Positions 13,677 to 22,215 of a stretch of DNA of 48,434 nucleotides are shown in pieces; the stretch's first letter is position 1; every line of letters starts with the position of its first letter. The DNA lies in assembly GCA_020832465.1 (NCBI GenBank), contig JAFIER010000263.1:1-48434 (forward strand), read 5' to 3'. The stretch is from Bernardetiaceae bacterium. Its GTDB lineage: Bacteria; Bacteroidota; Bacteroidia; Cytophagales; Bernardetiaceae. The notes below the pieces were generated by a model that saw nothing but the letters and a program-made list of their open reading frames with translations, was not told the origin of the DNA and ran no database searches. A program made the translations under genes and the position numbers.

Positions 13677-15440
13677 ATGGATAAAACCAAACTTCTCGAT
13701 AAAATTCAGCATCTAAAAGACCTGACCGAAGAGGAAAAAAAAATCCTCACCGATGCGCTTACAAAACAAAAAAAATACGGACTCGTCTGGGAAGATAAAC
13801 CCGAAGACGTAGAGCAAAAACTTGCCAAAGAATTGCCCATTTTCATAGAAGATAAAAGCAAGGCTATCCTTGCCAAAAAACTAAACGCACTCAAAGGTGA
13901 GCAACAAAACTTACAGGAAGACAAACCCCAAAACGCACCCAATCATATCCTTATTGAAGGCGACAACCTACATGCACTCACTGCCCTGAGTTTTACGCAC
14001 AAAGAGAAAATTGATGTCATTTATATTGACCCACCCTATAATACGGGTAACAAAGATTTTAAATATAATGACCATTTTGTAGATAAAGAAGACCAATACC
14101 GACACTCAAAATGGCTCGCTTTTATGCAAAAAAGACTCAAAATCGCTAAAACATTGCTCAAAGACTCTGGAGTCATTTTTATCTCGATTGATGACAACGA
14201 AAACGCTCAACTTAAAATCCTTTGTGATGAAATCTTTGGAGAAGAAAATTTTGTTTCGGATATAATTTGGCAATCAAGAAAGTCTGTGTCAAATGATACA
14301 TTTGTTTCTTTAAATCATAATTATACTTTATTTTATGGTAAAAATATTTCTTTTCTAAATAAAAATGATTTTAGGCTTCCTGTTTCAAAAGAAAAATTCA
14401 ATAACCCTGATAACGACCCAAGAGGAGCTTGGATTGCTGACCCTTTTGATGCACCTAATATAAGACCTAACTTAACTTATATTATCAAAAATCCTAATAC
14501 AAATGAAGAGTTTTTACCTCCAAAAGGAAGATGTTGGAGAACAACCGAAGAAGAATATTTAAAATTATTAAAAGATAATAGAATAGTTTTTGGTAAAAGT
14601 GGCAAAACAAAACCACAGTTAAAAAGATTTCTAAGTTTTGCAAAAGACAAAGGAACTACACCTATAAGTATTTGGAATGATTTAGAAACAACTACAAATG
14701 GAACTCAACAATTAGAAAATATTTTTGGACTTAAAAAATTCACAAATCCAAAACCTTTAGGATTATTAAATAGAATTTTAAAACTTTCTTCTCAAAAAGA
14801 CTCCCTAATCTTAGATTTCTTTGCGGGTTCGGGGACGACTTTGCATGCGGTGATGGAATTGAACAAAGAAGATGGTGGTAAAAGGAGTTGTATATTGGTA
14901 ACGAACAACGAAAATAATATATGCGAGGAGGTAACTTATGAGCGTAATAAGCGGGTAATTGAGGGCTATACGAATAAAAAAGGGGAGATAGTTTCGGGTT
15001 TGCGGGAGAATAACTTGCGTTATTATCGTTGCGGTTTTGTGGGCAGTGAAAAGACGGAAGCAAATCGGCGTCTGCTTACGGCACGTAGTACGGAGCTTTT
15101 GCAGATAAAAGAGGATTGTTATGAGGAATTGACTGAGGGTGCGGGTTTTTCGGCTTCGGCGTGCAGGATATTTTACAATGTTTTTTCGGATAAATACATG
15201 GGCGTGGTGTATTATTCTCGTGATATGTATTCGGTTTTGGAGGCGTTGCGGGATTATATTTTGACATTGAAGTTGTCAGGTGCATTTCATTTGTATGCTT
15301 TTAGTCCGGAGAGCGATAGTTTATTAGATTTTTTTGAAGATATTCAGGACAAGCTTGTTTTAGTTCCTTTGCCTGAGGCTATTTATAATGCTTATATAAA
15401 AACTATACCAGACCCTAAGGGAGGATTCAAAACCCCTTAG
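13677..15440 (+). CDS. mod: Type III restriction-modification DNA methyltransferase (Mod)
   Basis: Predicted N6-adenine methyltransferase and specificity subunit of a type III R-M system. Motif order is that of the beta class: DPPYNTG (118-124) first, then the SAM motif FFAGSGTT (about 380-387). Between them (about 195-378) is the variable target recognition domain. The C-terminal region (about 400-587) is typical of Mod proteins. Length 587 is normal. The res gene starts 19 bases after its stop. Base use is a mosaic: codons for 1-190 are C-rich, the recognition domain is strongly AT-rich, and from FAGSGTT onward codons become G/T-rich like res. That pattern suggests the recognition domain was swapped by recombination. 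The recognition sequence cannot be inferred. Confidence 0.93.
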   Translation: MDKTKLLDKIQHLKDLTEEEKKILTDALTKQKKYGLVWEDKPEDVEQKLAKELPIFIEDKSKAILAKKLNALKGEQQNLQEDKPQNAPNHILIEGDNLHALTALSFTHKEKIDVIYIDPPYNTGNKDFKYNDHFVDKEDQYRHSKWLAFMQKRLKIAKTLLKDSGVIFISIDDNENAQLKILCDEIFGEENFVSDIIWQSRKSVSNDTFVSLNHNYTLFYGKNISFLNKNDFRLPVSKEKFNNPDNDPRGAWIADPFDAPNIRPNLTYIIKNPNTNEEFLPPKGRCWRTTEEEYLKLLKDNRIVFGKSGKTKPQLKRFLSFAKDKGTTPISIWNDLETTTNGTQQLENIFGLKKFTNPKPLGLLNRILKLSSQKDSLILDFFAGSGTTLHAVMELNKEDGGKRSCILVTNNENNICEEVTYERNKRVIEGYTNKKGEIVSGLRENNLRYYRCGFVGSEKTEANRRLLTARSTELLQIKEDCYEELTEGAGFSASACRIFYNVFSDKYMGVVYYSRDMYSVLEALRDYILTLKLSGAFHLYAFSPESDSLLDFFEDIQDKLVLVPLPEAIYNAYIKTIPDPKGGFKTP

Positions 15441-15459: not shown

Positions 15460-17802
15460 ATGTTTACACTCAAAAAATATCAAGAAAAAGCAGTATTAAA
15501 TCTGTTAGAGGAAAGTTTTCAATGCTTATCATCACCATTTCGTCGTGAGTCTTTGTTATTGAAAGCGCCTACGGGTTCGGGCAAGACGGTTATGATGGCG
15601 AGTTTTATCAGTCGTTTGGTAGAGGAGGTTCGTTTGCAGCCGAATTTACCTGCGAATGTAGCATTTATTTGGCTTGCGCCTAATACTTTACATTTGCAGA
15701 GTTATGAATCTTTGCGAAATTTTTATAGCACTTTGCAAGACTTGCGCACCTTTCGCCTTTCAGACTTGCAAATCAATGATTTGTATTTAGAACACAAAGA
15801 TTTGCTTTTTGTGAACTGGAGCAGTTTGGATAAAGACAAGAACACATTTCGTCAGGATAACGAAAGGAGTTTTAATCTTGAGAGTTTGTTAGTCAATACG
15901 AAGGCAAAAGGTACGGAGTTGATTGTGATTATTGACGAGGCTCATCTTTCTGCATTTACGGGCAAGCAGGCAAAAAAAGTATTGGCTATGCTTAATGCGA
16001 AATTAGAGGTTTCGGTAACGGCAACGCCTTTATTGATTCCGAATCGTAATGTAATCATTCATCGTCAGGAGGTTGTGGCAGAAGAGATGATAAAGAAAGG
16101 TGCTATCATGAACCCTAAGCTCAAGGCGAGCAAGCAAAACGAAAGTGGTTCTACCTTAGATATATACTTATTAGAAGAGGCTTTACAAAAACGGGAGTCT
16201 ATTCGGAAAAAATATGAGGAGCTTGGTATCCCTATAAATCCTTTGCTATTGATACAATTACCTTCCGAAAATAAGGCATTAAGTAAAGAAGATGTCAGCA
16301 AACGGAATTATATATCTCATTATTTGGAGGAGAGTCATGGCATCAGCGAGAAGAATGGTGGTCTTGCGGTTTGGCTTTCTGATAGCAAAGACAAAGTAAA
16401 TTTAGAGGGCATAGAAAATCCAAATGCTTCTCAAAAGGTTTTAATTTTTAAGCAGGCTATTGCCCAGGGTTGGGACTGTCCTCGTGCTTCGGTTTTATTG
16501 ATTTTTAGGGAGTACGGCAATTTTAATTTTGGTGTACAGACTGTGGGGCGTATTTTGCGGATGCCGGAGCAGCGTCATTATGATGAGGATTTATTAGATT
16601 TTGGTTATATTTATACGAACGTACAAAATGATTTGATTAAGATTGTAGCTGATGATTTAGACTATTTCAATCTACAAATCGGTACACGTCAGTCAGATTT
16701 GTCTTATCCAAGTCTTTTGAGTAGCTATGTAAAGAATGATAGAAGTGCGAAGGGCTATCTGACGATTCGTTTTTATGATGTTTTTTATCAGGTTGTGGAG
16801 AAGCGTTACGGTGTAGAGCAGATACCTGAAACAACGGTTATGAGTAGCAGTGCTGAGGGTGAAAAATCGGTAGCAATTAGGGAACGGAATCGGGCTATAT
16901 TTCGTAAAAATGGTTGGCATTTAGAATCAGAAGATGTAAGTATTGATGTGCCTACTGATTTGCATATAGACCAGTACGAGGTCAATAGCATTTATCAGGT
17001 GCAGGATAGCATAGAGCATTTTGGTCGTACGCAAGTAGAGCTAAGTGCTATGGTCGATCGTTTCTGTTATAGGGTAATTACGCGTCTGAACCGTTCTAAG
17101 AGTTGGAAAGTTATGCGTACTGCCCTTATTCAGTTTGTAGAGTATTATTTAGGTTATGATGAGTATAGGTTTCGTAAAATCCTTCTCAACCCTTATAATC
17201 AGCCGATGCTAAAAGAGTTGATAACAAGTGCTTTAGAGAACTTTGATACTTGGCAAAAAGAGCGAGGTAATGAGATGCGTCAGTTGGCATCTGCGAGCTG
17301 GGAAGTTCCTTTGGAACGCATTTATGCAGAGACCCACGATAAGCACCCCAATATTTTAAGTCATGCCCTTTTGCCTTATTATGAGTTGCGTAGTGCCTCT
17401 ACGCCTGAGCGTAAGTTTGCTGTTTTTTTGGAGCATCACAAAGAGCATATTTTTTGGTGGTACAAAAATGGAGATAAAGGCAAGGAGCATTTTGCGATTA
17501 CTTATAAAAATTTACAAAATCGTGAAAGTTTGTTTTACGTAGATTTTATTGTATATCTAAAAAATGGTCAGATTGCATTATTTGATACTAAAACACGGGG
17601 TTCTGACGTAGAGGCTGTCCAGAAGCATAATGCTTTATTAGAATATGCAGAATTGCAAAGCCCTAAGCGCAGTAAAAAACTTTTAGGAAGTATCGTTATT
17701 GTCGAGGAGCAGCATGGGGACTACCTATTTCGTTATTGTCAGAATCGCATTACGGATACTCATGATTTGCGTGGTTGGGGTTTTGTGCGTGATTTATTTT
17801 AA
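15460..17802 (+). CDS. res: Type III restriction enzyme, helicase/nuclease subunit (Res)
   Basis: A 780-residue superfamily 2 translocase with nuclease. Walker A APTGSGKT (36-43), DEAH box IIDEAH (about 157-162), motif III-like SVTATP, RecA-2 motifs GWDCPRA and GRILRMPEQ, and near the C-terminus YVDFIVYLKNG...FDTK, the expected place of the PD-(D/E)xK nuclease (here VD and DTK rather than PD and ETK). It works with Mod to cleave DNA at sites with unmodified recognition sequences, protecting against phage. It is shorter than EcoP15I Res but has all core motifs. The frame is intact throughout. An inverted repeat follows the gene (17885-17907). Confidence 0.93.
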   Translation: MFTLKKYQEKAVLNLLEESFQCLSSPFRRESLLLKAPTGSGKTVMMASFISRLVEEVRLQPNLPANVAFIWLAPNTLHLQSYESLRNFYSTLQDLRTFRLSDLQINDLYLEHKDLLFVNWSSLDKDKNTFRQDNERSFNLESLLVNTKAKGTELIVIIDEAHLSAFTGKQAKKVLAMLNAKLEVSVTATPLLIPNRNVIIHRQEVVAEEMIKKGAIMNPKLKASKQNESGSTLDIYLLEEALQKRESIRKKYEELGIPINPLLLIQLPSENKALSKEDVSKRNYISHYLEESHGISEKNGGLAVWLSDSKDKVNLEGIENPNASQKVLIFKQAIAQGWDCPRASVLLIFREYGNFNFGVQTVGRILRMPEQRHYDEDLLDFGYIYTNVQNDLIKIVADDLDYFNLQIGTRQSDLSYPSLLSSYVKNDRSAKGYLTIRFYDVFYQVVEKRYGVEQIPETTVMSSSAEGEKSVAIRERNRAIFRKNGWHLESEDVSIDVPTDLHIDQYEVNSIYQVQDSIEHFGRTQVELSAMVDRFCYRVITRLNRSKSWKVMRTALIQFVEYYLGYDEYRFRKILLNPYNQPMLKELITSALENFDTWQKERGNEMRQLASASWEVPLERIYAETHDKHPNILSHALLPYYELRSASTPERKFAVFLEHHKEHIFWWYKNGDKGKEHFAITYKNLQNRESLFYVDFIVYLKNGQIALFDTKTRGSDVEAVQKHNALLEYAELQSPKRSKKLLGSIVIVEEQHGDYLFRYCQNRITDTHDLRGWGFVRDLF

Positions 17803-17949: not shown

Positions 17950-18071
17950 CATACTGCTAGACATTTAGCATTCAGAACTAACATTTCTTTAAGAAATGTT
18001 AGTTCTAAGCTCATTTTTGCATAGCGTGGGGTTTGCAAACCCCACGCTATGCAAAAATGTACAGTAGTATG
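17950..18071. mobile_element. Family A MITE-like element, copy A2 (122 bp)
   Basis: Terminal inverted repeats CATACTGCTAGACAT and (complement of the right end) CATACTACTGTACAT. Inside are the stem AGAACTAACATTTCT / AGAAATGTTAGTTCT (17973-18005) and the 48-bp perfect palindrome (18012-18059) identical to that in A1. The flanks AAGCGAGAT (17941-17949) and AAGCGTGAT (18072-18080) match at 8 of 9 positions, an aged 9-bp target duplication. It sits 45 bases upstream of the small-protein gene that opens the Dnd-like cassette, so it may separate that cassette's promoter from the coding region or influence it. Confidence 0.85.
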
Positions 18072-18115: not shown

Positions 18116-18367
18116 ATGGAAGATAAACCATATAATTCGCAACAGGGTATAGATCGCACTTTTCTACAGTTCGGTATTCGTACAGACGATATGCAAATTA
18201 TTAAAGATATAGCCGCCGAGCATGAAGTAAATTTTGAATGGCTACAAAACTTATTAGAAGATTTTTATAGCAAGAAGGTAAAAAATCAAAATTTAGAAGA
18301 TAAGCATATCGAGAAGATTGTAACAAAGGCACTTAAAAAGCTGCCAGACTATTTGGATAATAACTAA
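18116..18367 (+). CDS. Small acidic protein at the head of the Dnd-like cassette
   Basis: 83 residues, charged, no signal peptide or membrane segment. The core IIKDIAAEHEVNFEWLQNLLEDFYSKKV looks helical, and the Lys-rich tail (KIVTKALKKLPDYL) may form another helix. Small proteins of this type are, to my recollection, annotated next to dnd-type DNA modification genes in Bacteroidota, but I cannot check that here. Its stop is 26 bases before the DndD-like gene, same strand, so co-transcription is likely. A role as adaptor or DNA-binding partner of the two ATPases is inference. Confidence 0.75.
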   Translation: MEDKPYNSQQGIDRTFLQFGIRTDDMQIIKDIAAEHEVNFEWLQNLLEDFYSKKVKNQNLEDKHIEKIVTKALKKLPDYLDNN

Positions 18368-18393
18368 TTTAGCCCCCAAAACTCACTTTTTTT

Positions 18394-20385
18394 ATGCTAA
18401 TCAAAAGAATAAAAGCTAAGAATTTTAAGACCTATTTAGACTTAGATATTGACTTGACTGTCATTGATAATAAGCCTATCATATTGATAGGTGGCAAAAA
18501 TGGTGGTGGAAAGACCACACTATTCGAGGCTATCTACGGTGCGCTTTATGGTCTTAACATAAAGAATAATACAGAATTTTTACGCCTTGTAAATATGGGC
18601 ACAGATGTGCAAGAGGATAGCCAAATCGTACTGGAGATTCATTTCAGCGGTCAGGTCTTACACGAAGAGGTAAACTACGTGCTCAAACGAACTTATATGC
18701 GTAATGTAGAAAAAAAAGTCAATGAAGCAGTAGATTTTAATATGGATGGGCAGCGTTTAGTTTACGGTACGGCAATGCCGATACAGCAGCGTGCCAAAGC
18801 TGAGGAGGAGGTGAGTAAAATTATTAAGGCAAATCTTCCGGAGGAGCTAAGTCGTTACTTTTTATTTGATGCTATGCAAGCTAGTGAGCTATTGCAAGAA
18901 AATAAACTACTTCTAGTTATCAAGGAAAATATTGAGAACGTGATGGGTTTCAACAAATACAGTCAGCTTGCGCGCGTTTCTGAAACTATTTTAGATGACT
19001 ATAAAGCGCAACAGCTTAAGGTCGATAAAGAAAAACAAGACTATTTAAGTTTGTTAGAACAGAAAAAAGAGCAAGAACAGGAGTTGGAACAGACAAAAGA
19101 GGCGCTAGCCAGCGCACTACGATATGCTACCGAAAATTTGCAGGCTTATCAAGATTTACAGCAAGGCTTTAATCATCAAAATACGCTCAAAGAGAGATTA
19201 GAGACTCAAAAAAGAGAAATAGAAACCATTTTACAAAAAGAAAAAAATTACCGCAAAAATACCGAAAAATTTATTAAAGACCTTGAGCTTTTTGTTACGC
19301 TACCTAAGCTACAAAGCCTTCTTAAATCTGAAATTGCTTTGATTTTAGAACGTTTTCAACAGTCTTCCTCGAGCAGTGGTTCGCATATAGATAGGCAGCA
19401 GCTAGCACATATTAGTCAGCTCGTATTTGACTATCTGCAAAATAATGAACGTTTCACAGGAACTATAGATAAAAAATCTCTTCAAGATTTTTTATGGAAA
19501 AAAATACAAGCGTCCGAAAATGAGAATGAGTATAGTTTCTTAGAATCAGAAGAGATAAGCTCGCTCAAGCGTGTGCATAGTTATCGTGCTCCTAATCCTT
19601 TTCCGGATTTACAGCAGGAAAAACGAGATTTGGACTCAGAAATACGTAAAATTCCTGAAATGCGAATCAGCATAGATAAAACCGAGCAGAGTATTACGGG
19701 TAGTAACTATAACTTTTTGAAAACTTATAAAGAAAATGAACTCAAAACAAAAGAATATGAGGCAAAAGTTGCTACTATAGAACGCACGCTCGTACAAATC
19801 AAAGATAAAATTCAGCAGTTTGACATACAGCACGAGGATAAAGACAATCCTAAATTTGAAGTAATGCAGAAACTCAAGCCGCTGTTCGATAAAATCGCAA
19901 ACCGCTTGCTTGCACATAAGAAAAAACTGATAGAAGAAACCATGAGACAGGACTTGAATATCAATTTAGCAGCTTATAGAGACATGATAGATAGAGTCGA
20001 GCTTTCTGAAAATTTAGCTAACTTAACCTTTAAGATTTTTCATAAACACGGAAATGAAATTTCGCTTACCGAGCTGAACACCGCTTCAAAGCAAGTTGTA
20101 GTGCAGGTTTTATTAAAGTCTTTGCACAAATACGGTGATTACAATCCACCCGTTATGATAGATACCGTTATGGGGGTGCTAGATAAAGAAAGTCGTACTA
20201 CATTACTAGAAAATTACTTTCCTTCGCTCTCGCACCAAACTATTTTGTTGAGCTCGGACAGCGAAATAGAAGAAAAGGATATAGAAAAAATTGCACCTTT
20301 TATATCTCGTGCTTATACACTCGAGCGACAAAAATATGAGCAGTGTACGCATGTCAAAACTGGTTATTTTAATTCAAATATTTAA
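18394..20385 (+). CDS. DndD-like SMC/Rad50-type ATPase
   Basis: 663 residues. N-terminal KRIKAKNFKTY and Walker A GGKNGGGKTT (33-42) are typical of SMC-like ATPases; a long coiled coil spans about 190-550. The C-terminal half-site VMIDTVMGVLD (about 586-597) followed by NYFPSLSHQTILLSSDSEI is strongly DndD-like, as is LPEELSRYFLFDAMQ (about 149-163), which matches the DndD LPEE...FFFDGE region but with DAM instead of DGE. The ABC signature is degenerate: LNTASKQ where DndD has a form like LSAGEKQ. In Dnd systems DndD is the nicking/ATPase partner of the sulfur-insertion complex. Here no DndB, DndC or desulfurase gene lies in the window. Loss of the signature Gly may affect ATP-driven dimerisation. 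Confidence 0.85.
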   Translation: MLIKRIKAKNFKTYLDLDIDLTVIDNKPIILIGGKNGGGKTTLFEAIYGALYGLNIKNNTEFLRLVNMGTDVQEDSQIVLEIHFSGQVLHEEVNYVLKRTYMRNVEKKVNEAVDFNMDGQRLVYGTAMPIQQRAKAEEEVSKIIKANLPEELSRYFLFDAMQASELLQENKLLLVIKENIENVMGFNKYSQLARVSETILDDYKAQQLKVDKEKQDYLSLLEQKKEQEQELEQTKEALASALRYATENLQAYQDLQQGFNHQNTLKERLETQKREIETILQKEKNYRKNTEKFIKDLELFVTLPKLQSLLKSEIALILERFQQSSSSSGSHIDRQQLAHISQLVFDYLQNNERFTGTIDKKSLQDFLWKKIQASENENEYSFLESEEISSLKRVHSYRAPNPFPDLQQEKRDLDSEIRKIPEMRISIDKTEQSITGSNYNFLKTYKENELKTKEYEAKVATIERTLVQIKDKIQQFDIQHEDKDNPKFEVMQKLKPLFDKIANRLLAHKKKLIEETMRQDLNINLAAYRDMIDRVELSENLANLTFKIFHKHGNEISLTELNTASKQVVVQVLLKSLHKYGDYNPPVMIDTVMGVLDKESRTTLLENYFPSLSHQTILLSSDSEIEEKDIEKIAPFISRAYTLERQKYEQCTHVKTGYFNSNI

Positions 20386-20533
20386 ACTAAGCACCATTGC
20401 TTTTTTACATACTTATGGAAAAATGGGGCTGGATACTCAATTTCTAGTAGTATGGCTTTTTTATTATTTATTCCCACAGATACTTATTTACAATTTTATT
20501 AACTGGAGTTACGAATATGGCGTTTAATAAACA

Positions 20534-20566
20534 AGAACTAACAGTTTTTCAAAAACTGTTAGTTCT
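20534..20566. repeat. Intergenic hairpin (ACAGTTTTT variant)
   Basis: Perfect stem AGAACTAACAGTTTTT / AAAAACTGTTAGTTCT around a single base. It is the same stem type as the other window hairpins, with compensated changes on both arms. It lies in the 252-base gap between the DndD-like and HerA-like genes. Confidence 0.8.
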
Positions 20567-20610
20567 CAAACTGCATAACTTCAGTTATTAACAAAATAAT
20601 TAAGTACTGT

Positions 20611-20618
20611 TATTTTTG
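20611..20618 (+). promoter_or_regulatory. Candidate -7 box upstream of the HerA-like gene
   Basis: TATTTTTG fits TAnnTTTG but lies only 20 bases before the ATG, with no clear TTG box at the right distance. A very similar stretch (GACTGTTATTTTTG followed by TTACTTACTTA) occurs at 5804-5835. It may allow separate expression of the second ATPase. Confidence 0.35.
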
Positions 20619-20637
20619 TACACTTACTTACAGAGAA

Positions 20638-22215
20638 ATGATAAGTTTTCAGAATATCAAACAAGCAGACGCACTTAATGAAGTTTTGCGTCCACTAAAA
20701 GACAAAATTGAATTGAAAATCAATTTAAAAAAGTATGAGGAAGAGAAGCCTATCGATATCAATCTTATGCAAATGATTCGGCTTTGCTTTTTAGTAGGTT
20801 TGTCTAACGCTAATACAGAGGAAAGAACAATGGAAAGTTTAGAAAATGTAGGGACTGGAAGTAATAGTATTTATGAAACTTTTTCCACTAAAAGCGAATT
20901 AGCACCACTTTATTCTGCTTTGCTCAAGCTTCGCTATCAACACTTAGACATAGACTGGGAAAGTACTTCCATAAAAAATAAAATTATCAATGCTGAAATT
21001 ATTAAAGGCTGCAATATCTTATTAGCAGCTGATAACCTCGACGACTGGTTATCATATACTCAAACAGATGTACAAGTTGGAAGCATTCCTATACTTGACT
21101 TAGATATCGGCACATATGGAGACGACATTCCAGCCAAACTTAACCTTAACGGTAAAAATATACCTAATACACAGATTTTAATTGCCGGCACTACGGGGTC
21201 GGGTAAGTCTAACCTACTCGCTGTCTTACTTCAGGAGTTAAGAGGGCGTAGCATAGAGACAAGTTTTCCTGTAAATTTTTTACTATTTGATTATAAAGGC
21301 GAGTTTGCTGACCCAGCTAATAGCAACTGGTTGCAGCTTTTTGAAGCTACATCATCTGCCATCCTCGACCCTATAAAAAGTCCATTACCTTTGAACCCCT
21401 TCAAAAATTTTGTAGGAAAAACACAAAACGAAATCAACTTATATGCCACTGAACTCTCTAATGCACTTTTAGCAATAGATAAAGCAACTATCAGTGCCAA
21501 CATGAGTGATAGACTCTCAAAAGCAGTCATAGAAGCCTATAAACAAAATGATAATTTTCCTATCACTTTCGAGCTAATTTTAGAAGCTTACACTGAGTTA
21601 CAACCAGAACGTGACCAAGGCAATACAGATAGTGTAAAATCTGTTTTAAATCAGTTGATTAGAAGCAAACTTTTTGAAGCAGAAGATCATATCAACCTGA
21701 TTAAAGATAGCTATATCATTAAAATGGATAGTTTTCCTAAAGAGGGGGTATTAGCAAAAGCAATTGTGTATTTTGTCATTTCAAAACTAAGTAGTTATTA
21801 CGAAACATTGCCAAAGCAAGCTACAGACGACAAGAGTGTAGAGTTAAGGCACTTTACAATTATTGATGAAGCACATTATATGCTTAATTTTGAAAATAAG
21901 CCATTACAAAACTTAATAGCCATAGGTAGAAATAAGGGCTTATCTATTATCTTAGCTACACAAAATATGGATAGTTATAAGAGTAAATATTTTGATTTTT
22001 ATGCTAATGCTCAATATCCACTTATCATGAAGCAGCAATCTATTAACGATAAAACTTTAAAGGATTTGTTTGGCGTTTCTGGTAAAAATTTACAAGAACT
22101 AAAAGAGGAAATCAATAGCCTTCAAAAAGGCGAAGTGATTTTAAAAGATGAAAAATCCATTGCATTAGGCATTGGTAAGTGCTTTAAAAAGATGAAAGTA
22201 AGACACTTAATATAA
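20638..22215 (+). CDS. DndE-like domain fused to a HerA/FtsK-type ATPase
   Basis: 525 residues. Residues 1-105 resemble DndE: a helical segment with MIRLCFLVGLSNA (46-58), then a variable loop and TFSTKSELAPLYSALLKLRY (81-100), comparable to the DndE C-terminal part. From about 150 it is a HerA/DUF87-type motor: Walker A GTTGSGKS (184-191), DYKGEF after strand 2, Walker B IIDEAH (406-411), sensor LATQN and a C-terminal KGEVILKDEKS. Such motors translocate DNA or pump it through a ring, and are known in HerA-NurA and DptH-type restriction modules. Fusion to a DndE-like domain would link it to the DndD-like neighbour. The DndE assignment is by eye and less certain than the motor assignment. Confidence 0.8.
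   Translation: MISFQNIKQADALNEVLRPLKDKIELKINLKKYEEEKPIDINLMQMIRLCFLVGLSNANTEERTMESLENVGTGSNSIYETFSTKSELAPLYSALLKLRYQHLDIDWESTSIKNKIINAEIIKGCNILLAADNLDDWLSYTQTDVQVGSIPILDLDIGTYGDDIPAKLNLNGKNIPNTQILIAGTTGSGKSNLLAVLLQELRGRSIETSFPVNFLLFDYKGEFADPANSNWLQLFEATSSAILDPIKSPLPLNPFKNFVGKTQNEINLYATELSNALLAIDKATISANMSDRLSKAVIEAYKQNDNFPITFELILEAYTELQPERDQGNTDSVKSVLNQLIRSKLFEAEDHINLIKDSYIIKMDSFPKEGVLAKAIVYFVISKLSSYYETLPKQATDDKSVELRHFTIIDEAHYMLNFENKPLQNLIAIGRNKGLSIILATQNMDSYKSKYFDFYANAQYPLIMKQQSINDKTLKDLFGVSGKNLQELKEEINSLQKGEVILKDEKSIALGIGKCFKKMKVRHLI

Follow-up and report, generated by a model that had tools for sequence, protein, structure and literature searches.

Pairs of DndD and DndE proteins without phosphorothioation (PT) genes have been described before, and it was suggested that in such dyads other modifications stand in for PT (Rakesh, Aravind and Krishnan, 2024; PMC10853773). 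The same paper reports HerA proteins of clade 3 that are fused to DndE and adjoin a DndD-type ABC ATPase, describes small proteins, and deals in its main text with cytosine methylases and CxC systems. What role DndD/DndE pairs play without sulfur genes is an open question. The operon described here, located on a 48,434-nucleotide contig of a Bernardetiaceae bacterium (JAFIER010000263.1, assembly GCA_020832465.1), ties such a pair, as in many other species, to the known self mark and the known nuclease of a type III restriction-modification (R-M) system, and this tie makes the question directly testable within a single operon. The whole contig, C217 of a 4.6-Mb genome that is 99.3% complete, was analysed and is called the window in the following.

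The five-gene operon and its relatives

Three open reading frames (ORFs) follow one another on the plus strand of the window, at 18116-18367 (83 amino acids), 18394-20385 (663 amino acids) and 20638-22215 (525 amino acids). The original prediction, which saw in them a small protein (SP), a DndD-like ATPase and a DndE-like/HerA fusion in a row on one strand, is confirmed by ORF calls, profiles and, for the fusion, the predicted structure. Directly 5' of this trio and on the same strand lie the type III genes for Mod (13677-15440) and Res (15460-17802), and the true unit comprises the five genes between 13677 and 22215 rather than the stretch 18116-22215. Mod and Res are parts of the system, since the five genes recur together in the same order and on the same strand in dozens of Bacteroidota species. 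A HerA-family scan of 85,000 species genomes yielded 184 loci, the best 80 of which were studied (81 with the window); nearly all are from Bacteroidota, a few from Ignavibacteria, Kapabacteria and Verrucomicrobia, and one from an alphaproteobacterial metagenome-assembled genome. The order Mod, Res, SP, DndD, DndE/HerA on one strand was found in 47 of the 53 loci (window included) whose upstream flank is 9 kb or longer, and all five genes were present in 58 of the 81 loci overall, many of the others being cut by contig ends; the small protein had been sought with a profile before these counts were made. The genes are tightly packed, with median gaps of 5.5, 10, 5 and 3 bp, many 4-bp overlaps of start and stop codons, and a distance of at most 60 bp between Res and SP in 49 of 65 loci. 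The gaps in the window operon (19, 313, 26 and 252 bp) are wider than those in its relatives.

Genes for Abi_2, RhuM, a YhcG nuclease and GmrSD are inserted in some of the operons, which points to a role in defence. The whole five-gene operon is also found at 6283-14313 of L171 (MT835906.1), an "unverified" record from human faeces entitled 'Bacteriophage sp.', where it adjoins ORFs that look by eye like relaxase and integrase genes. This record is probably a mobilizable Bacteroidales element rather than a phage, and the inserted defence genes together with the relaxase- and integrase-like neighbours fit a mobile defence operon. Among phages it was the one full-length match; relatives were not found among the viral contigs of IMG/VR, and plasmids gave only distant HerA and DndD matches.

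The encoded proteins and the sulfur-modification genes

Both PADLOC and Pfam label Mod and Res as type III. Mod (13677..15440, plus strand, 587 amino acids) is a type III DNA methyltransferase of the N6-adenine type that matches PF01555 (E=4.5e-42, Pfam) and the PADLOC model MTase_III (E=1e-103); its DPPY motif at residues 118-121 is kept in 98% of 54 orthologues. Res (15460..17802, plus strand, 780 amino acids), adjoining mod, is a type III restriction subunit that matches PF04851 (E=2.5e-18, Pfam) and combines a superfamily 2 (SF2) helicase with a C-terminal PD-(D/E)XK-like motif, VDF..LFDTK, whose residues D695, D709 and K711 are invariant in 59 orthologues. The key residues of Walker A, DExH and the PD-(D/E)XK-like motif are conserved at or near 100%, and a Pfam scan found no PLD/HKD match in Res. 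The N6_N4_Mtase domain with DPPY in Mod and the SF2 and PD-(D/E)XK parts in the neighbouring Res are the features by which type III R-M genes are recognised; cleavage by type III enzymes is ATP-dependent and requires two unmethylated sites in head-to-head orientation.

Comparison by profile and structure upheld the assignment of the trio (18116-22215, plus strand) to Dnd-related families, leading from SP to PF20306, from DndD to TIGR03185 below its cut-off, and from the HerA part to the C-terminal domain of DndH. SP (18116..18367, plus strand, 83 amino acids) is small, helical and of the Sp-DndD type. The window copy matches PF20306 (Sp-DndD) with E=1.6e-4 and 22.2 bits, below the curated cut-off of 27.2 bits; 44 of 46 SP orthologues match the family at E<=0.01, the best with E=4.5e-12, and the family invariants F16, G20, D25 and W42 are all present in the window protein. 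An AlphaFold2 (AF2) model with a predicted local distance difference test score (pLDDT) of 86 has four helices, and no match to this predicted fold was found in the PDB.

DndD (18394..20385, plus strand, 663 amino acids) is a coiled-coil ABC (SMC-like) ATPase and, according to a family search across 118 genomes, the only DndD of its genome. It matches TIGR03185 from end to end with 192.7 bits, under the equivalog cut-off of 245.85, and the PADLOC DndD model with 217 bits; five orthologues reach 156-190 bits against TIGR03185. Walker A and Walker B are conserved among the orthologues. Diagnostic of this group of DndD proteins is a degenerate ABC signature, in the window ELNTASKQVVV (20071..20103, plus strand, residues 560-570), in which LN[T/A]ASKQ stands in place of LSxGE. 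The signature serine is replaced by asparagine in all 70 orthologues of the operon group, whereas twelve other aligned DndD proteins have LSxG or a near variant such as FSKG at this position; in addition, IDTPLGRLD of other DndD proteins reads IDTVMGVLD in the operon group. The altered signature suggests a changed ATPase cycle. Neither C.C nor C..C was found in the window DndD, so that its coiled coil is devoid of a CxC zinc hook.

DndE/HerA (20638..22215, plus strand, 525 amino acids) is a DNA-translocating ATPase of the DndH/HerA-FtsK type. PF01935 is matched by the window protein and by 37 of 37 members, Walker A and IDEAH are invariant among orthologues, and the PADLOC DndH models are matched in their C-terminal part alone. 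The best match of the predicted structure (pLDDT 83.7) is the DndH C-domain 7es4 (Foldseek E=4.6e-18; VIA Z=31.2 over residues 151-525). For the N-terminal DndE-like domain (20638..21054, plus strand, residues 1-139) AF2 and DSSP predict strand-helix-helix twice, followed by a C-terminal helix, which is the plan of DndE (PMC10853773). Moreover, a profile alignment to six bona fide DndE-HerA fusions extends over the whole length from residue 3 (E=5e-38). The isolated N-terminal region matches a DndE profile weakly (E=0.0027, probability 11%), and Pfam found no DndE match in the protein. The structural matches cover mainly residues 149-524 and do not include DndE, and are uninformative on DndE either way.

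The absence of sulfur genes, which had been noted for the window, extends to the whole genome: profile searches found no dndB anywhere in the 4.6 Mb and no intact dndC (TIGR03183), and the search for dndC elsewhere in the genome gave just a relic at the end of contig C215. PF01507 (3'-phosphoadenosine 5'-phosphosulfate (PAPS) reductase) is matched by GuaA and by two genes of contig C31. Whole-genome searches of 44 genomes with the operon detected dndC in only three and none in the other 41, the trio recurring across Bacteroidota without dndC; the one of the three that was checked sits in a separate canonical dnd operon. Counting DndD matches overestimates phosphorothioation in Bacteroidota. 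Of the original interpretation as a whole, the lack of sulfur genes stands and the suspected link to the adjacent Mod has become strongly supported by the conserved synteny, the reading of methyl marks by the complex being a hypothesis, while the view of the R-M genes as mere neighbours gives way to the five-gene unit, and the supposed novelty of DndD/DndE without DndC is lost to the dyads already reported in PMC10853773. The relic itself (L005, G000:C215, 8265-8378) consists of some 40 codons at the contig end followed by a stop codon, shares 21 of 38 residues with a DndC, and is adjoined by an HNH gene and a gene with a PADLOC-matched HIT-family part; to judge by this fragment, the genome formerly had a canonical dndC.

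Several further observations concern these genes. A closed genome from the family to which the window belongs (L024, 6047-10935), in which dndC was not found, has a dndD gene and after it a DndE/HerA gene interrupted by an IS4-family transposase. Two genomes carry, at a shared chromosomal location near fabF, a small protein, DndD and a 465-residue DndE-FtsK-like protein (L031 8579-12187 and L034 3850-5724); the L034 copy has a broken dndD, and genome G054 with this type of locus is without dndC. At five loci (L103, L106, L113, L116, L133) an ORF of about 165 residues with an 'APHK'-type start lies 1-7 bp 3' of HerA; inspected by eye, it is similar to the DNA-binding region of HNH nucleases linked to Dnd, and Pfam gave no match in the two that were tested. 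Finally, a 29-bp palindrome (AACTAACA...TGTTAGTT) is present in 321 copies genome-wide and in none in a reversed control, and is a repetitive extragenic palindrome (REP)-like or miniature inverted-repeat transposable element (MITE)-like repeat. Its seven copies in the window lie at 2974, 5884, 17976, 20536, 22377, 26717 and 40778. Two of them lie within the operon, between Res and SP (17976..18004) and between DndD and DndE/HerA (20536..20564), and are probably no components of it.

A proposed joint action and its alternatives

How might a type III restriction enzyme and two DNA motors work together? With moderate confidence we lean towards the five-gene operon being a methylation-marked defence system with extra DNA motors, in which Mod-Res and the motors act jointly. 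Mod would methylate adenine in a short asymmetric site and thereby mark self DNA, and Mod-Res would recognise unmarked incoming DNA. Onto this DNA a complex of DndD and DndE/HerA, regulated or adapted by SP, would be loaded. DndE could grip the DNA, DndD might constitute an ATP-gated looping clamp whose altered ABC signature would go along with a changed ATPase cycle, and HerA would pump DNA, either to deliver remote sites to Res for cleavage or to immobilise or clear the invader. As self mark, methylation would take the place of phosphorothioate. That the operon serves defence, that the motors load onto and pump DNA and that they are coupled to Res is suggested by the type III and HerA families and by the scanning model for DndD/DndE in PMC10853773. 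More tentatively, the operon may stand for a restriction system of a class of its own, with the type III Mod-Res, the SMC-like clamp with its altered ABC signature and the hexameric DNA pump in one machine, and with base methylation instead of phosphorothioate exempting DNA from a scanning motor of the Dnd type. If joint action holds true, SMC-like and HerA motors would be joined to a textbook restriction enzyme.

The evolution of the five proteins bears on this. Pairwise distances from 42 non-redundant loci, assessed with 999 permutations, correlate with r=0.87 for DndD and HerA, 0.79 for DndD and SP, 0.57 for Mod and Res, and 0.42 for Res and HerA, each value being equalled by none of the permutations; within the DndD/HerA/SP trio the correlations range from 0.72 to 0.87, across the modules, that is versus Mod-Res, from 0.15 to 0.42. 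SP, DndD and DndE/HerA form one tightly co-evolving module; a second module, Mod-Res, is more exchangeable. Such a motor module evolving as its own block, loosely tied to Mod-Res, would also be expected if Mod-Res were a complete type III system and SP-DndD-DndE/HerA a separate effector of the same operon that responds to a failure or inhibition of R-M, for instance by anti-restriction proteins of phages, and then kills or arrests the cell or degrades DNA via a recruited nuclease, with SP as negative regulator. This explanation, which we hold to be unlikely, draws further on the negative-regulator role that PMC10853773 proposes for the small protein in CxC/Pbe systems and on the few genomes in which the module occurs without Mod-Res. 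Pfam, TIGRFAM and PADLOC scans of the three motor proteins, however, detected neither a nuclease nor a toxin domain, and joint action is suggested by how strongly these proteins depend on one lineage of Mod-Res. Compared with eight stand-alone type III Res proteins the system Res forms one clade (SH-aLRT 98).

Several points weigh against joint action. The 80 loci were picked via HerA, and the counts of neighbouring genes carry this ascertainment. The correlation between Res and HerA may partly reflect common host descent, and the DndE assignment rests on predicted topology and the full-length alignment and is weak by sequence. A Res-first search in one family revealed a stand-alone Mod-Res pair (L168) that is nested in the system clade and has no motor genes, which weakened the strict notion of a dedicated Res clade that the comparison with the eight stand-alone proteins had at first supported. 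In a quick tree the window Mod branches with a stand-alone Mod, and the Mod proteins are more mixed than Res. The nesting of L168 and the mixed Mod tree indicate that R-M and motors are not inseparable; judged from these trees, the motor module depends largely on a single R-M lineage, and the R-M pair can occur alone and is exchanged. Moreover, relatives from Kapabacteria and Ignavibacteria have the ATPases DndD and DndE/HerA and no Mod-Res; in two genomes the two ATPase genes lie on different contigs. Among 395 surveyed genomes of the phylum, just two had close homologues (39-56% identity), with DndD and HerA on separate contigs; at L049, L050, L051 and L052 (two genomes of one family, one labelled Kapaibacterium) DndD and DndE/HerA lie apart among unrelated-looking neighbours, and SP, Mod and Res are not present at these loci. 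In the HerA tree the branch without R-M is nested with moderate support, and loss of R-M is therefore more likely than ancestral absence. At L110 (3-7726), SP-DndD-DndE/HerA lies behind genes for an SF1 helicase, a PIN-domain protein and an AAA protein without Mod-Res, a possible alternative partner set.

Less probable still are two independent defence systems that are mere neighbours within a defence island. Defence genes do cluster, Mod-Res and the motor module each occur alone, and accessory genes are inserted between the two in some loci. Island clustering does not, however, keep order, strand and spacing, all of which are retained here across several phyla (47/53 loci for order and strand, 49/65 for the short Res-SP gap), mostly with one Res lineage. 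Phosphorothioation with DndC/DndA acting in trans or recently lost is very improbable and was rejected. For it speak the dndC relic and the IscS-type desulfurases that could substitute for DndA (PMC10853773). Against it, the searches of the genome for dndC, PAPS reductases and dndB gave, apart from the relic, only the two C31 genes and GuaA, intact dndC is missing here and dndC from 41 of 44 other operon genomes, and housekeeping PP-loop enzymes (CysD) are not counted as DndC equivalents (PMC10853773).

Comparison with known systems

From canonical Dnd the operon differs in a DndD that stays below the equivalog cut-off (192.7 versus 245.85) and in DndC, which is represented in the genome by the relic only. 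It resembles DndFGH (DptFGH) in the HerA domain, which is most like the DndH C-domain (7es4); the 525-residue protein is without the N-terminal and restriction endonuclease domains of DndH, and DndF and DndG were not matched among the operon proteins. The plan of CxC/PbeABCD, a nuclease-helicase, a small protein, an ABC ATPase and DndE, in some cases with a base methylase, is shared. Membership in CxC/Pbe was ruled out by the missing CxC hook of the window DndD and the missing HKD of Res, which is a type III enzyme with a PD-(D/E)XK motif and not an HKD nuclease fused to an SF2 helicase; furthermore, DndE has a HerA motor. The four-gene loci L054 (5750-11798) and L056 (5267-11101), a further dndC-less type, have the order Sp-DndD, DndD, DndE-HerA with a helix-turn-helix (Sigma70_r4) protein first and dndC not nearby; unlike the operon they have a canonical LSxGE signature, no Mod-Res and distant sequences. 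Of the genomes with this type, G357 is without a dndC match and G198 has only a sub-threshold one.

With type III R-M systems the operon has in common the N6-type methyltransferase with DPPY, the SF2 and PD-(D/E)XK-like Res and the mod-res order, but it adds SP, DndD and DndE/HerA after Res, and its Res is mostly a separate lineage. The PT-less DndDE core of PMC10853773 is shared as a linked DndD-type ATPase and DndE without PT genes, the DndE part being weak by sequence. DndDE without PT genes is thus known, while its coupling to type III Mod-Res is undescribed in the main text of that paper and in related PMC papers, where no type III Mod-Res beside DndD was found; the supplements may contain such loci. 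Compared with the DndDE loci of PMC10853773, the operon is set apart by its type III Mod-Res and SP and by the LN[T/A]ASKQ signature of its DndD.

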